IMG/VR virus record: IMGVR_UViG_3300031553_000020
Span: 1 to 32,979 of that record
Direction: 5' to 3' (one strand)
From: a virus
Length of the DNA: 32,979 nt
Shown here: positions 1-32,979 of the stretch, piece by piece
How the letters are laid out: every line of letters starts with the position of its first letter
Position numbering within the stretch: position 1 is the first letter of the stretch
Translations under genes and position numbers: made by a program
Notes under the pieces: generated by a model
What the model was told of the DNA's origin: nothing
The model's input: the letters and a program-made list of their open reading frames with translations, nothing else
The model's database searches: none

Positions 1-111
1 CGCTATGTCCGGGCGGTACTACTTGCCTGGCTGGGAGTGCCGCGGTGACTCTGACCCGCGCATTTCTTTACACTAAAAAAGGGGAAAGGAGAATAGCAGA
101 TGGAAACTGAG
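1..111. repeat. 140-bp direct repeat, copy R1 (right part, across circle junction)
   Basis: Bases 1-111 are identical to 1048-1158. Bases 1-98 are also identical to the window end, 32882-32979. If the ends are joined, the full repeat is 32853-32979 plus 99-111, 140 bp, matching 1019-1158. It holds the 3' end of the replication gene, the intergenic leader with its ribosome site, and the first codons (METE) of the next ORF. The identity breaks at 112 versus 1159. Confidence 0.95.
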
Positions 112-327
112 AAGCCGTTATTGAGCAACGAGGACATGGCCGTTGCCTTGTCCGAACTGCATCTGGAAGGGCTGATAGAGTTCCGGGGTGATGAGGCGTT
201 TAAACTGACAGACAAGGGGTTAGACTATGCTTTCAAGATGTGGGAGCCGATACCGCCGAAGGATAAGGTAGTGCTGTTTTATTTGCTGGATTTGGTGGAG
301 GCGATAGGAGAGCTAGAGAAGGAGTAA
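100..327 (+). CDS. Small winged-helix-like protein of the replication operon (75 aa)
   Basis: No family is recognised with certainty. The 75-residue product is acidic and predicted helical; its middle part (residues 13-45, including LSELHLEGLIEFRGDEAFKL and TDKGLDYAFKM) reads like a winged-helix unit: helix, beta-hairpin wing, helix. A clear ribosome site (ggggaaaggag) lies upstream of the ATG. The stop is three bases before the replisome organizer gene, so the two are probably co-translated, and it may assist or regulate initiation (inference). The leader and first four codons lie in a 140-bp repeat that also precedes the ORF at 1147, so two different genes share one translation-initiation region. 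Confidence 0.7.
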   Translation: METEKPLLSNEDMAVALSELHLEGLIEFRGDEAFKLTDKGLDYAFKMWEPIPPKDKVVLFYLLDLVEAIGELEKE

Positions 328-330
328 CCG

Positions 331-1095
331 ATGGCTAGAACACAGAAGGATACAGTTAGCTATTTCCCGCACGATGCTTATTCCTCGGCCAAAAGTGACA
401 CTGTGACAGTGCTCCAGAGCAGATATGGTAATGACGGATATGCCTTCTGGTTCAAGCTGCTGGAGAATCTGGCTACGACCGGTGGGCATTATATTGACCT
501 GAGAAATCCCGCCAGGTTGCAAGTGTTTATGGCCAAGATGGGCGTCGAGAAATTACTGGGTGTAGAAATGCTTAATTTACTTGTAGAAATGGAGGCCATT
601 GACAAGGAGCTCTGGGAGTCGAAGGTAATCTGGTGTCAAAACTTGGTAGATAATGTCGCCGATGTCTATAAAAACCGCCGGCGGGAAATACCCCAAAAAC
701 CGATAATTACAGGCAATAATCGAATAACTACAGGGAGTAATACCAAAACTACAGGTAGCCTATCTGTAGAAATACCACAAACTAAATTAAATAAAACTAA
801 ACTAAATAATATTAAAGGAGAGGGAGAGGGGGGTATGGGGGGAGATTCCACACCCTCACCAGCTGCTCAGAAGGTATTAGATATGTTTAACAAGAAATTC
901 CCGTATGCCTTCGGGAGAGAGCCTAACAGCAGGGAACAGGCGCAGCTGAGGGACTTTGCCGCCGAGGTCGCCGTCGCCGGCGGGGCCACGGAAAAACAGA
1001 TACATGACGCTTTTGCCGAGGCGGCGGGCCAGAATAAGTGCAATGTCCGCTATGTCCGGGCGGTACTACTTGCCTGGCTGGGAGTGCCGCGGTGA
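331..1095 (+). CDS. Replisome organizer / replication initiator (DUF4373, Lin1244/Lin1753-like)
   Basis: The 254-residue protein starts with SYFPHDAYSSAKSDTVTVLQ and continues RYGNDGYAFWFKLLENLATT (residues 7-50), the pattern of the Lin1244/Lin1753-like N-terminal domain of phage replication proteins, a winged-helix DNA-binding domain. A low-complexity linker (about 112-165) carries three imperfect 7-residue repeats (ITTGSNT-like) and a K/N-rich stretch. A C-terminal helical domain (about 180-254) is likely to contact helicase or its loader by analogy with DnaD/lambda O type proteins (inference). The linker-encoding DNA contains 21-bp iterons and an AT-rich tract and may be the origin. The last ~26 codons lie in the 140-bp repeat, of which a second copy lies across the circle junction. 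Start ATG follows gagaaggagtaaccg. Confidence 0.8.
   Translation: MARTQKDTVSYFPHDAYSSAKSDTVTVLQSRYGNDGYAFWFKLLENLATTGGHYIDLRNPARLQVFMAKMGVEKLLGVEMLNLLVEMEAIDKELWESKVIWCQNLVDNVADVYKNRRREIPQKPIITGNNRITTGSNTKTTGSLSVEIPQTKLNKTKLNNIKGEGEGGMGGDSTPSPAAQKVLDMFNKKFPYAFGREPNSREQAQLRDFAAEVAVAGGATEKQIHDAFAEAAGQNKCNVRYVRAVLLAWLGVPR
702..823 (+). other. Candidate replication origin: three 21-bp iterons plus AT-rich tract
   Basis: The hexamer TACAGG occurs at 708, 729 and 750, exactly 21 bp apart, in the consensus AAnTACAGGnAnTAAT (copies 702-722, 723-743, 744-764; copies 1 and 2 agree at about 15 of 21 positions). It is followed by an almost pure A/T stretch (778-820), a natural unwinding element. The whole lies inside the linker region of the initiator gene, as the lambda origin lies inside gene O. 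The layout is seen in the sequence; the origin role is inference. An alternative is a purely protein-level 7-residue repeat. Confidence 0.6.
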
Positions 1096-1158
1096 CTCTG
1101 ACCCGCGCATTTCTTTACACTAAAAAAGGGGAAAGGAGAATAGCAGATGGAAACTGAG
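1019..1158. repeat. 140-bp direct repeat, copy R2
   Basis: This is a perfect match to the repeat that spans the joined window ends (32853-32979 then 99-111). It covers the last 26 codons of the replication gene, the 51-bp intergenic leader and the first four codons of the next ORF. The two copies are 1,047 bp apart on the circular map and flank ORF 100-327 and most of the replication gene. Confidence 0.95.
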
Positions 1159-1332
1159 GGATGGGGTAAATGTTTCGGCACTCCAAAATGGCATTACTTT
1201 GTAGATGGTAGGAGTTTATGCAGGCGGTTTATGCTCTTCGGCCCTACGGATTTAGAGCAAGGGAATGATGACTCACCTGATAACTGCAAAGATTGTACCA
1301 AAAGATTAGTCAAAAGGAATAAAAACGTTTAG
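1147..1332 (+). CDS. Small Cys/His-rich protein, possible zinc ribbon (61 aa)
   Basis: Family not recognised. It has cysteines at KCFG and SLCRR and a C-terminal NCKDCTK pair, plus a WHYF histidine between the first ones, an arrangement that could bind one zinc. The first codons (METE) and the strong ribosome site lie in the 140-bp repeat, so its translation start is copied from, or shared with, ORF 100-327. It sits between the replication gene and the Mom-like gene. Confidence 0.65.
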   Translation: METEGWGKCFGTPKWHYFVDGRSLCRRFMLFGPTDLEQGNDDSPDNCKDCTKRLVKRNKNV

Positions 1333-1356
1333 CCTCACACCTAATGGGGAGGGGGA

Positions 1357-2289
1357 ATGAGAACACTAATAGATAATTATTGGATAGAGGTTACGAAGTT
1401 CGACCCCCGTGTGGTTGGTCTATATGAGAAGCATTATTCAGCTCGCAGGAATGTCCCGCCTAGTGTACGGCGCCAAAGGGGGATATTAAGACCTGGAGAG
1501 TCTATGACTTTATTAACAGTGGATTGCAGGGCTTTATTTGCTTGGGGAAATGGCATAGATGATTGCATACCACCCCAGAGTGGTATTAATTGCGCTGTCT
1601 TTAGGAATACGGGAGATGTTCTCTCTAGCGAATTGATAAAAGAAGCTGACGAAATGGCTTGGCGCCGTTGGCCTCCAGAATTGAGGCACTATACCTATGT
1701 TAATGCCGATAAGATAAAATCATCACACCCTGGCTACTGTTTTCGTATGGCTGGATGGGACTACCAACGTGATGAGAGAGGCAACCCCGTGAAAACTAAA
1801 GGTGGCTTATACATATTAGAAATTTTTGCCAATGAAGCCCCTACTGTGAAAGGGGGAGAGATGAAACCTTGGGAGATAGTCATAAAAGATAACATTGACC
1901 CGGGTATACGAAGGAAAATTAAGCGCATCCTCAAGCCAGTTCGCTCTATCGGCAACCCACAGAAATGCCTCTTCTGCGGTATTGATACGACTTGGACTAT
2001 AAACCACCAGCCTGTCTGCCCTAAGTGCTCTGTTGAGTATGGCTTCCTCGGTGAAGAATGGCTCGGAGGCCCTTGCGAAGTCTGTGGCCGTCAGAGTGAA
2101 TGGTGGACTGAAGGCGACCCGCAGCACGACCTTTGCTACATTCACCGTGATGCCTGGTTCCACTGGACAATGTCTGAGCTGGGCTTGATTGACTCTAAAG
2201 TTGAGCCGGAGAAGTGGCACCAGGCTTGGGCGGAAGGCTGGGCCAGGTTTATCGCCGCCATGAAGGAAAGGGAAAAACTATCAGTATGA
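1357..2289 (+). CDS. GNAT-fold protein resembling phage Mom DNA-modification enzyme, with zinc-ribbon C-terminus
   Basis: The 310-residue protein begins with a region (about 10-150) containing VVGLYEKHYSARR, GESMTLLTVDCRALFAWG, INCAVFRNTGDVLSSELI, MAWRRWPP, TYVNADKIKSSHPGYCFRMA and GWDYQ. This resembles GNAT-type N-acyltransferases of the Mu Mom class, which modify adenine in phage DNA to evade host restriction. The C-terminal part (about 200-265) has four cysteine pairs or near-pairs (CLFC, CPKC, CEVC and a later C-H) fitting one or two zinc ribbons. Mom function is inference from family resemblance; it could be another GNAT enzyme. It follows the replication genes and precedes a RuvC-like resolvase. 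A GGGGAGGGGG ribosome site precedes the ATG. Confidence 0.5.
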   Translation: MRTLIDNYWIEVTKFDPRVVGLYEKHYSARRNVPPSVRRQRGILRPGESMTLLTVDCRALFAWGNGIDDCIPPQSGINCAVFRNTGDVLSSELIKEADEMAWRRWPPELRHYTYVNADKIKSSHPGYCFRMAGWDYQRDERGNPVKTKGGLYILEIFANEAPTVKGGEMKPWEIVIKDNIDPGIRRKIKRILKPVRSIGNPQKCLFCGIDTTWTINHQPVCPKCSVEYGFLGEEWLGGPCEVCGRQSEWWTEGDPQHDLCYIHRDAWFHWTMSELGLIDSKVEPEKWHQAWAEGWARFIAAMKEREKLSV

Positions 2290-4147: not shown

Positions 4148-4582
4148 GTGTCTCAAGTAGAGTATTCATATAAGGAATTCACCTTCACGCTTGAGCAAGT
4201 AAAGTGGGCATTGGCCAACTTATCGACATTGAAAAATGGTGAGTGGCCTAGAGAGCCGACTGGGAGTGGTTATCAAGACTGGGCATTTAAGTCGAAGGGA
4301 ACTAAAACAGAAGCTAGTTTTGTAAAACCTGCATTGATAGCAGCAGAAATTGAAATCCGACTGGAGAACGCCGGCCAGGACGGCGCCATGTGCAAGATGG
4401 AGTATATCTACGGGGAAGATGAAGGGAGCATAGCCCGGCACTGGCATCTACCTGTCTGGGTAATTCAGAGACGGATTGACCGGGCGCTAAATTACTGCTG
4501 CGGGTGGAAGCGAAAAAAGATGCGGTATTCGGGCTGGAGCAAACAAAAGGACTACCGCAGGAGTAGTCAAATATCCTCTTGA
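4148..4582 (+). CDS. Putative late-gene transcription regulator (ArpU/RinA-like)
   Basis: The 144-residue protein ends in a helix-turn-helix with the pattern YIYGEDEGSIARHWHLPVWV followed by IQRRIDRALNYCCGWKRKKM, resembling the sigma-4/HTH end of ArpU/RinA-type activators. These genes usually sit, as here, just before the terminase genes and turn on late transcription. Residues 60-90 are acidic/helical. The GTG start (4148) is preceded by a weak AGGATG. Its stop codon is embedded in the -35 box of a strong promoter (4579). Function is inferred from fold pattern and position; family membership is not proven. Confidence 0.55.
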   Translation: MSQVEYSYKEFTFTLEQVKWALANLSTLKNGEWPREPTGSGYQDWAFKSKGTKTEASFVKPALIAAEIEIRLENAGQDGAMCKMEYIYGEDEGSIARHWHLPVWVIQRRIDRALNYCCGWKRKKMRYSGWSKQKDYRRSSQISS

Positions 4583-4614: not shown

Positions 4615-4671
4615 TTGAGGGTGCTTTGCGCCCTCTCTGCATTTTAGCCCACCGCTAGTCGGTGGGTTTTA
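4615..4671 (+). terminator. Short leader RNA: two hairpins, the second a terminator
   Basis: The transcript from promoter 4579 would begin here. Hairpin 1: GAGGGTGC (4617-4624) with GCGCCCTC (4628-4635), an 8-bp stem with a 3-base loop. Hairpin 2: CCCACCG (4648-4654) with CGGTGGG (4660-4666), then TTTT. Without antitermination the product would be only about 55 nt. A promoter, short RNA and terminator beside a late regulator matches the lambda pR'-6S-tR' plan (inference). Confidence 0.7.
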
Positions 4672-5085
4672 ACTTATTCTTGGCAATGCTTTTTCTATCT
4701 TGCGATGGCAACCTGGGCAGACCCACACGCCGATATTAGGGTTTGAATCTGACCAATGGTGGTATTGCAAATTAGTATCTCGTCCGCAGTATTGGCATTG
4801 ACTGTTTTCGGGGTATGGTAATTTATTTAAGCCTTTTATATCCTTTCTCTTCGAATTTTGCCCATATCTTATTTCGTGATTGCGTCTTCGTATTTGTCTT
4901 GCGGCATTAACTACTTCTTTACGGGCTACGGCATAGGCTAACCGTTCTTCTCTATGGGCATAATAATAAGCAAGGGCTTGACGCCGATAAATTTCTGGGT
5001 GTTCCGCTGCGTAGGCTTTAAATTTAGCTTTAATTTCCTCTTTGTGTTTTAAGTAATATCTTTGCGCATCCTCTTTTTTCCCCAT
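4669..5085 (-). CDS. HNH-type endonuclease, minus strand (138 aa)
   Basis: The C-terminal part (about 95-135) has CQYCGRDTNLQYHHWSDSNP and VWVCPGCHRKIE: two CxxC zinc pairs around the HH of a zinc-stabilised HNH nuclease. The N-terminal 90 residues are strongly basic and helical (YYLKHKEEIKAKFKAYAAEH), typical of the DNA-binding arm of free-standing phage HNH enzymes. It is one of only two intact minus-strand genes and lies between the late regulator/terminator and the terminase genes. No ribosome site is seen, but a promoter ends 6 bases before the ATG, suggesting leaderless translation. It could be a homing endonuclease; in many HK97-type phages an HNH protein near terminase also helps cutting at packaging. 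Confidence 0.8.
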   Translation of the reverse strand: MGKKEDAQRYYLKHKEEIKAKFKAYAAEHPEIYRRQALAYYYAHREERLAYAVARKEVVNAARQIRRRNHEIRYGQNSKRKDIKGLNKLPYPENSQCQYCGRDTNLQYHHWSDSNPNIGVWVCPGCHRKIEKALPRIS

Positions 5086-26231: not shown

Positions 26232-26245
26232 TTAAGGAGGGGATG

Positions 26246-26902
26246 ATGGATAAAAAGGACTTAACCAAAATCCTGAATGACCATAAGAAGTGGGTAAATG
26301 GTGAAGGTGGGGAACGAGCCAACCTCAGTGACGCCGACCTCAGTGACGCCGACCTCAGTGACGCCGACCTCAGTGACGCCGACCTCAGGAACGCCGACCT
26401 CAGGAACGCCGACCTCAGGAACGCCGACCTCAGGAACGCCGACCTCAGGAACGCCGACCTCAGGAACGCCGACCTCTGGAACGCCGACCTCAGGAACGCC
26501 GACCTCAGGAACGCCGACCTCAGTGACGCCGACCTCAGGAACGCCGACCTCAGTGACGCCGACCTCAGTGACGCCGACCTCAGGAACGCCGACCTCAGGA
26601 ACGCCGACCTCAGGAACGCTGTTTTACACCCACCTACAATATTGCTTCTCTGTAATTGGGGCAAAGTCTCAGGCAAGTTGACATCTGAATTAATGAGATA
26701 CGATGCTGCTAACCACCCCAAACCACATAAATTCCAAGAATGGGCTGATGGTGGCGGTTGTCCTTACAGCAGTGGTTTTCCCCGTGTGGCTCACTTTCAA
26801 GAAAACAAGGAATTATGGAAGCCTGGAAAAGCCAAATCAGCCAGGGAACTTGTCTTGATGCTTTTTAAGGAAAAGAAAATAAAATATGACCCAAATCTTT
26901 GA
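26246..26902 (+). CDS. Pentapeptide-repeat protein (218 aa)
   Basis: Residues ~1-24 are a short helical lead ([20 protein letters not shown]). Then come 20 units of five, [20 protein letters not shown], giving a right-handed quadrilateral beta-helix. Last is a conserved C-terminal domain ([57 protein letters not shown]). Pentapeptide helices can mimic DNA (MfpA/Qnr) or scaffold contacts; the precise target here is unknown. ATG 26246 has AAGGAGG 5 bases upstream; ATG 26243 is too close to it. Encoded by near-identical 15-bp DNA units, so the length is probably variable. Confidence 0.8.
26318..26617 (+). repeat. Array of 20 tandem 15-bp units
   Basis: Unit GCCGACCTCAGTGAC or GCCGACCTCAGGAAC; the two forms differ at two bases that change together (SD versus RN codons), with one TGG variant. 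The array codes for the pentapeptide repeats. Such perfect units expand and contract readily, and short-read assembly may misstate their number. Confidence 0.95.
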
Positions 26903-26931: not shown

Positions 26932-27021
26932 ATTATACACTAATCGACAAGAGATTGGAATACAGAATAGTAAAGGTAGAACTTTGAACCCAAAGGAACA
27001 TTATAGTGGCGGAGGTGGAAT

Positions 27022-32380: not shown

Positions 32381-32715
32381 TAGTTCAGCAACGAGTATCT
32401 CTTAAACGAGAACTGACCGAAGTTATCAAACGGCACCAGGGCCGTGACCGCGCCATTACCGGTATGGAGCTGGCTAAGATGCTCAATCAAAGGGACGACC
32501 GGAAGATAAGAATTTTGATAAGGGAGTTGATAGAGGGGAATCTGCCTATTGCGAGCTGTAGTTCGGGCTACTTCATACCCGTTACTTACCAAGAGGCCCA
32601 GGAATATGCAGACTCTCTAAAGGGCCGGCTAATCGAGGATGCCTTGCGCCGGCGGGATTTCCGCAGAGCCGCCGACTGTCATTTAAGGCCGGCCACACAG
32701 AGGAGGCTATGGTAA
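32377..32715 (+). CDS. Winged-helix DNA-binding protein (112 aa)
   Basis: From ATG 32377 (the longer ATG 32353 would overlap the HNH gene deeper): [60 protein letters not shown] and [20 protein letters not shown]. The order helix-helix-(NQRDDRKIR) recognition helix-wing (SSGYFIP) is the common phage winged-helix protein found near replication genes. It probably regulates early/replication transcription. Confidence 0.75.
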
Positions 32716-32957
32716 CTCATGAGGATTGGCAAGCGGAGGCTCTGGCCGAAGCCCAGGCCGAGTGCGACCGGGACAATCCGGTCGTCAGGAATATCACCTA
32801 TCACCGTTTCGTCAGCAAGTCGAAGGGGAGGCGAAACGGTAAGCAGCGTATCAGGCGGCGGGCCAGAATAAGTGCAATGTCCGCTATGTCCGGGCGGTAC
32901 TACTTGCCTGGCTGGGAGTGCCGCGGTGACTCTGACCCGCGCATTTCTTTACACTAA
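32709..32957 (+). CDS. Small protein with C-terminus supplied by the 140-bp repeat (82 aa)
   Basis: [40 protein letters not shown] and NGKQRIRRR are unique. The last ~33 residues (ARISAMSAMSGRYYLPGWEC) come from the repeat read out of frame to the replication gene end, so they are unlikely to be the original C-terminus. A basic RNA/DNA-binding function is possible. It overlaps the previous gene by 7 bases. Confidence 0.55.
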   Translation: MVTHEDWQAEALAEAQAECDRDNPVVRNITYHRFVSKSKGRRNGKQRIRRRARISAMSAMSGRYYLPGWECRGDSDPRISLH

Positions 32958-32979
32958 AAAAGGGGAAAGGAGAATAGCA
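32853..32979. repeat. 140-bp direct repeat, copy R1 (left part); includes 98-bp terminal redundancy
   Basis: Identical to 1019-1145. Bases 32882-32979 are also identical to bases 1-98, the window's terminal redundancy. A 98-bp overlap could be an assembler k-mer overlap on a circular molecule, a true direct terminal repeat, or a contig ending at an unresolved repeat. Confidence 0.95.

Follow-up and report, generated by a model that had tools for sequence, protein, structure and literature searches.

The window analyzed here, i.e. the 32,979 nt of IMG/VR virus record IMGVR_UViG_3300031553_000020, encodes a replication initiator whose own coding sequence very probably contains a replication origin, at positions ~555–821. 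The encoded initiator would bind iterons in this region, and an array of ANNA motifs with a five-nucleotide period would serve as a strand-specific unwinding and helicase-loading element. The repeats, their phasing and the selection at the DNA level on iterons and array can be read directly from the sequences; that the encoded protein binds here, that the DNA melts, that the helicase is loaded and that replication starts at this place we infer. A sequence-only reading had proposed a lambda-O-like origin in the initiator gene. The plan it described, phased iterons and an A/T-rich element between two domains, stands, but the protein is not a lambda O homologue; it combines Lin1244_N and DnaD-like domains.

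The record and the initiator gene

The window is a complete IMG/VR virus record and has 98 bp common to both ends. The end overlap falls inside an exact 127-bp duplication (1019–1145 and 32853–32979), thus circularity of the phage genome, which is probable, is based on synteny and not on the overlap alone. The first copy of the duplication spans the end of the initiator gene and the following DNA. The second sits just upstream of the initiator gene and contains the overlap (1–98). In the related genome L001 a homologue of the gene at 32431–32709 directly precedes the initiator, and the segment from ~32.72 kb to 0.32 kb is therefore an insertion relative to L001.

Almost all genes of the window are on the plus strand. 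The GC skew is positive nearly everywhere because the genes are co-directional, and it carries no origin signal. A cumulative skew minimum had been predicted at the site and is absent; the detrended minimum is at 26950 and the maximum at 4539.

The initiator displays the Pfam domain Lin1244_N (DUF4373; E-value = 3e-9, 37.8 bits against a cut-off of 25), which is also matched by all 102 aligned relatives, and over its full length it belongs to phrog_2562, “replication initiation protein” (E-value = 4e-24). The match to DnaB_2/DnaD (PF07261) is below the curated cut-off in the Pfam sequence search (13.3 bits against 22). A Pfam scan at E-values up to 1 gave only Lin1244_N and this weak DnaB_2 match, i.e. 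no O-type N-domain, and no AAA+ domain was found by Pfam.

In an AlphaFold model built with 102 homologues the N-domain is winged-helix-like, the C-domain is helical and the linker between them is disordered (pLDDT < 50 at residues 141–171), which agrees with the earlier placement of the repeats in the linker-coding part between two domains. The N-domain model resembles many winged-helix proteins (Z about 4–5.5). Comparison of the C-domain model with DnaD C-domains gives VIA-align Z values of 7.5 (2i5u) and 7.3 (2zc2), above most unrelated rows and below 8; the best Foldseek match is also 2i5u (E-value = 0.8, probability 0.96). A profile search of PDB sequences gave no match, the INPHARED phages show no DNA similarity to window positions 1–1400, and tblastn returned a single record, which is unannotated.

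Table 1. Positions of the initiator gene, iterons and array in the window.
Feature	Position	Strand	Remarks
Initiator gene, 254 aa: Lin1244_N winged-helix N-domain, disordered linker, DnaD-like C-domain	331–1095	+	Pfam, PHROG, AF2 model, PDB comparison
Coding part of predicted DNA-binding N-domain, residues ~11–117	361–681	+	Pfam 11–103; winged-helix matches, model residues 13–117
Inverted iteron copy, plus-strand TGTAGAAATG, minus-strand CATTTCTACA, inside N-domain coding part	561–570	-	Among top 3 window sites for outside motif
Inverted iteron copy, plus-strand TGTAGAAATG, 21 bp from the 561–570 copy	582–591	-	Best window site for outside motif
Iteron 1, AATTACAGG	705–713	+	Direct repeat
Iteron 2, AACTACAGG	726–734	+	21 bp from iteron 1; 7th best window site for outside motif
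Iteron 3, AACTACAGG	747–755	+	21 bp from iteron 2
Inverted iteron copy, plus-strand CTGTAGAAAT, minus-strand ATTTCTACAG, facing iteron 3	764–773	-	2nd best window site for outside motif
8 ANNA motifs, exact 5-nt spacing (ACTAA ATTAA ATAAA ACTAA ACTAA ATAAT ATTAA AGGAG); proposed unwinding/helicase-loading element	781–820	+	Run scan
Coding part of DnaD-like C-domain, residues 183–254	877–1092	+	VIA-align, Foldseek

Iterons in the window

The repeat-carrying linker comprises codons ~125–164 and is lysine-rich and charged. Its coding part carries three direct iterons and one inverted copy (Table 1). The direct iterons are centered on TACAGG and are exactly 21 bp apart, as the sequence-only reading had stated; its list was incomplete, since it lacked the inverted copy in the linker and the two in the N-domain coding part. 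Three equally spaced 12-mers this alike arose in 19 of 3000 synonymous-codon shuffles of the window gene alone. An equal or higher score for spaced 12-mers is reached at just one other place of the 33 kb, a pentapeptide-repeat gene near 26.3 kb. This gene (ADLRN repeats, 26243–26902) contains DNA repeats of 15 bp, and its other reading frames are open over long stretches. CTACAGG occurs eight times in the window (3.9 expected), and as TACAGG itself is not rare, the signal is the repeat array and not the hexamer.

A position matrix was made from 92 linker sites in 39 other genes (the outside motif, consensus GTTTCTACA) and applied to both strands of the window. Ranks 1–3 are the minus-strand copies near 580, 763 and 559, all within the initiator gene, and iteron 2 is seventh. 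The matrix was built from other phages only, thus it picks out the initiator gene without reference to the window.

The ANNA array in the window

The array follows the rule ANNAN, i.e. an A at positions 1 and 4 of each five bases (A1 and A4). On the minus strand of 781–820 this reads as 5′-TnnT-3′ every 5 nt, eight in register. It is the only ANNA run of five or more on either strand in the 33 kb, and an eight-unit run was obtained in 19 of 5000 synonymous shuffles. A nearly pure A/T tract of ~43 bp had been noted after the iterons; the stretch 778–821 is indeed A/T-rich, at 84% A+T and not nearly pure, and its 5-nt periodicity had been overlooked. The statistics from the window alone are modest, with p about 0.004–0.01 per feature, and the strength of the case comes from the relatives, which are not independent of one another.

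Conservation of the array in relatives

ANNA runs of at least six units are found in 77 of 102 relatives' genes, compared with 6.6 (maximum 11) in within-gene synonymous shuffles. The tract reads e.g. AGTAA AGTAA AGGAA AGTAA AGTAA or ACTAA ACTAA ATAAA... in relatives. An alignment of 62 arrays shows 81–100% A at A1 and A4 of units 4–7, although codon positions 1, 3 and 2 are all occupied by them in succession; positions 2 and 3 of the units vary. The autocorrelation of A exceeds that of synonymous shuffles at lags 5, 10, 15 and 20 (z = 21.7, 21.1, 8.8 and 12.3) and hardly elsewhere. Runs of at least seven number 69 inside initiator genes versus one outside, in 739 kb of flanking sequence.

Codon choice within the arrays of relatives found by protein similarity is exclusive or nearly so: serine is AGT in 68 of 68 cases (24% elsewhere), threonine ACT in 38 of 38, valine GTA in 84 of 84 and leucine CTA in 23 of 25. 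Because 5 and 3 are coprime, a pure (AGTAA)n has TAA in every frame. The third array unit is altered to AGGAA or ATAAA, which removes the stop codon and keeps both A's; each third unit is altered in this way because the array is also protein-coding and TAA stops are avoided. GC-rich lineages (L097, L118, L123, L127) retain A1 and A4 and have changes at positions 2, 3 and 5 (AGTAC, AGCAG, AGGAG). Pure A/T-richness as an account of the tract is thereby ruled out. A clear array is missing in 25 of 102 relatives, thus the protein family does not need the array in the gene.

Frames and helical phasing of iterons in relatives

In the linkers of relatives the sequence TTTCTAC is found in five peptide contexts (VST, SFY and FLP; VET and SRN when on the minus strand). 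It often occupies two frames of one gene, and both strands are used. Same-strand pairs 21 bp apart number 20, with 0.86 expected. Other lineages have other repeats; of all 77 array genes, 73 have repeated 7-mers ahead of the array (38 expected). Same-strand repeat spacings cluster at 21, 32, 42, 53, 63 and 74 bp, which are multiples of 10.5 bp and correspond to whole turns of B-DNA. For a period of 10.5 bp the phasing R is 0.863, whereas the null did not exceed 0.626. The most frequent spacing, 32 bp, is not divisible by three. Exactly 20 nt separate the last iteron from the array in 18 of 27 genes; the distance is longer in the window because the inverted iteron is interposed. The 21-bp pattern, whose loss in close relatives would have counted against the sequence-only reading, is kept in the close ones (L001, L005–L014); distant relatives have other whole-turn spacings or lack the element. 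Conservation beyond codon need had also been predicted, and the exclusive codons, the shuffles, the iteron frames and the phasing bear this out strongly.

These findings bear on the possibility that the repeats stem from selection at the protein level, acting on a charged disordered linker, or from neutral slippage of microsatellites. The linker is disordered and lysine-rich, 7-residue repeats (ITG/TTG) contribute to the 21-bp pattern, and several GC-rich pattern matches are plain microsatellites in short open reading frames. However this explanation is already contradicted by the exclusive codon choice, by iterons in different frames, by the 32-bp spacings, by an intergenic copy (L047, below) and by the retention of A1 and A4 at wobble and non-wobble positions alike while positions 2 and 3 vary. 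It is hardly credible.

Iterons and array outside the initiator gene in L047

The initiator of L047 has a short linker and no in-gene array. An eight-unit array is instead present in intergenic DNA ~400 bp upstream of the initiator on the opposite strand; all other arrays in the set of relatives are inside initiator genes. It is preceded by CTACATTAAC at 4715 and 4693 and by ACATTAAC at 4650 (22 and 43 bp apart), and repeats and array have the same relative orientation as the in-gene elements. This relocation of the repeats with the array is the strongest single argument that iterons and array form a DNA unit. L047:4560–4720 is a relocated origin candidate and a natural test case.

Two further explanations can be weighed here. 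The iterons may be operators for autorepression of the initiator, with the array a passive melting region or of no role in replication. Initiator autorepression at repeats is known for plasmid Rep proteins, and the repeats at 561–591 lie within the coding part. The sites however are 230–440 bp downstream of the start codon and not at a promoter, and both the conserved phased array 20 nt away and the joint relocation of array and repeats in L047 are left unexplained, which makes an operator function improbable. Alternatively the element may act on the mRNA, as an unstructured A-rich stretch or as an internal ribosome-binding site that yields a separate C-domain. In the window, AAAGGAG (814–820) is followed by an in-frame ATG at 835 (codon 169), which could start the DnaD-like C-domain. 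This ATG however is not kept in L003, and an element that works as DNA and not as mRNA is required by the minus-strand iterons, by the phasing along the helix and by the intergenic copy in L047; a role in the mRNA is very improbable.

Arrays in other phage initiators

A scan of IMG/VR with the AT-rich array pattern alone gave at least 120 loci, and among the matches listed 91 of 102 distinct open reading frames display Lin1244_N in a domain scan. The GC-rich array pattern gave at least 120 further loci; among those listed some are plain microsatellites in short open reading frames and a few are in DNA methylases or other genes. The listed GC-rich matches include 60 longer open reading frames. 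Lin1244_N is present in only seven of these, and the 60 match many PHROGs, which bear the names replication initiation protein, primosomal protein, DnaD-like helicase loader or O-like. L257, L303, L339 and similar IMG/VR contigs carry pure pentanucleotide microsatellites (AGGAC, AGCAC, AGTAG) in short open reading frames, which are unlike the graded ANNA arrays and possibly not from phages.

Two groups of initiators from among the GC-rich matches, MKQISWFKF and MAGDWIKM, were refetched by their N-domain only, the array not being used as query. The array is present in all eight non-redundant MKQISWFKF genes (0.14 expected) and in 6 of 33 MAGDWIKM genes (0.5 expected; mean run 5.3 versus 2.9), and the 170 kb of flanks of these genes have no run of at least seven. 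Runs of this length were also not found in lambda (O-P region), TP901-1 (early region), A118, phi11 or the Rac prophage region, nor was the array found in lambda O, TP901-1 rep or Rac ydaU. Thus the array is widespread but not universal.

The chances appear about even that tailed phages have in the 5-nt-phased ANNA/TnnT array a general origin element that has escaped recognition, i.e. a single-strand register like the DnaA-trios, located in the linkers of many non-homologous initiators (Lin1244_N, MKQISWFKF, MAGDWIKM, O-like and DnaD-like PHROGs). A helicase-loading step common to these phages would read it, and their origins could then be located from DNA sequence only. The five-base rhythm seems not to have been described before. 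The open-licence PMC literature yielded no paper on Lin1244/DUF4373 origins and no relevant paper that prints the array DNA or its peptides, although such absence is weak evidence.

Two other loci show related arrangements. An initiator-like protein at L250:3614–4654 has an HNH endonuclease domain between its N-domain and the array, as if inserted at the in-gene origin. E. coli K-12 ydaU of the Rac prophage (L528:5472–5563) displays AGATGTTCAAA-type repeats at spacings of 33, 33 and 12 bp, with an A-rich stretch after them; these YdaU linker repeats, which lack an ANNA array, are a candidate in-gene position of oriJ.

Comparison with known origins

In lambda, the O protein binds iterons in gene O and the adjoining 40-bp A/T region opens (PMC5043065). 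The annotated iterons are at codons ~116–144, so that here too iterons are located between initiator domains and are followed by an A/T-rich region. The lambda N-domain however is unrelated, its iterons are longer (18 bp as annotated) and no ANNA run reaches five units in its A/T region. By published description, oriL of SPP1 is similar in having direct repeats and an A/T-rich DUE inside a Gram-positive phage initiator gene, the replisome organizer gene 38 (PMC6316719), but SPP1 encodes its own loader and helicase. The rep gene of the lactococcal phage TP901-1 (annotated “experimental”) is comparable too: this Gram-positive phage is temperate, and its replication protein gene has repeats and a linker rich in A/T. 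The gene has no ANNA run of five or more, and its N-terminal sequence is unlike Lin1244_N by inspection.

Iteron plasmids (RK2, F, P1) also have iterons in helical phase, and their Rep initiators can bind one strand of the DUE, in which thymidines are important (PMC5043065, PMC10797057). Unlike these, the phage origin would be inside a coding sequence, and 5-nt ANNA arrays are not reported in the literature consulted. The basal unwinding system of DnaA boxes and DnaA-trios is comparable in that double-strand boxes stand beside a short-period array at a fixed distance. The period however is three in the trios and five (ANNAN) in the window array, and the window initiator has no AAA+ domain by Pfam.

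Opposite the DnaA-trios of B. subtilis oriC is the DnaD recognition element (DRE), with repeated 5′-TnnT-3′ on one strand of the unwinding region; DnaD binds single-stranded DNA with two such motifs and tolerates variable spacing between them (PMC10201434). The window array has eight TnnT in register on its minus strand, where at least two are needed. The arrays in phage genes differ from the DRE in their fixed 5-nt period and their 6–11 units, and in being present also in genomes that have no PF07261 protein.

Proposed mechanism

The Lin1244_N winged-helix domain would bind the iterons, with core TTTCTACA / AACTACAG. Their whole-turn spacing would place several subunits on one face of the DNA, and the neighboring duplex would be strained and would open in the 40-bp array just downstream of the iterons; opening of the array by an iteron-bound initiator is proposed by analogy with lambda and SPP1. 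The lower-strand TnnT every 5 nt would then act as a single-strand register by which one strand is held and the replicative helicase is loaded. The register may be read by the initiator itself or by a helicase-loading factor that it brings.

The identity of this reader is the weakest link of the mechanism. A specific version, which we consider possible though rather unlikely, is that the array is a DRE whose opened TnnT strand is bound by the DnaD-like C-domain of the initiator or by host DnaD, which loads the helicase. The TnnT motifs every 5 nt and the predicted DnaD-like fold of the window C-domain are consistent with this, and arrays are present in 15 of 16 genes with the YxxxIxxxW motif. 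Arrays however are also present in 62 of 86 genes without that motif, in a family from which L268 was sampled, a member with a DnaT-like C-terminus, and in genomes without any PF07261 match, e.g. isolate Phocaeicola coprocola (L111) and Bacteroidales MAGs of L105 and L118. The array genomes that have no PF07261 protein, and the other C-domains, exclude that DnaD from host or phage is the universal reader. A TnnT-reading paralogue or a convergent reader may act on the array. We favor as reader either the initiator or a loading step of a general kind; in this phage the reader may be of the DnaD-like version.

The origins of most phages are unmapped, and a short-period element that can be searched for in DNA and that marks the initiator genes of many families would place origins in many uncultured phages. 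Linker peptides such as SKVKESKVKE or EKRREEKRREE would be explained as a by-product of the DNA function. For initiators that lack an AAA+ domain, the array is also a testable handle on how they open DNA and pick the strand that receives the helicase.
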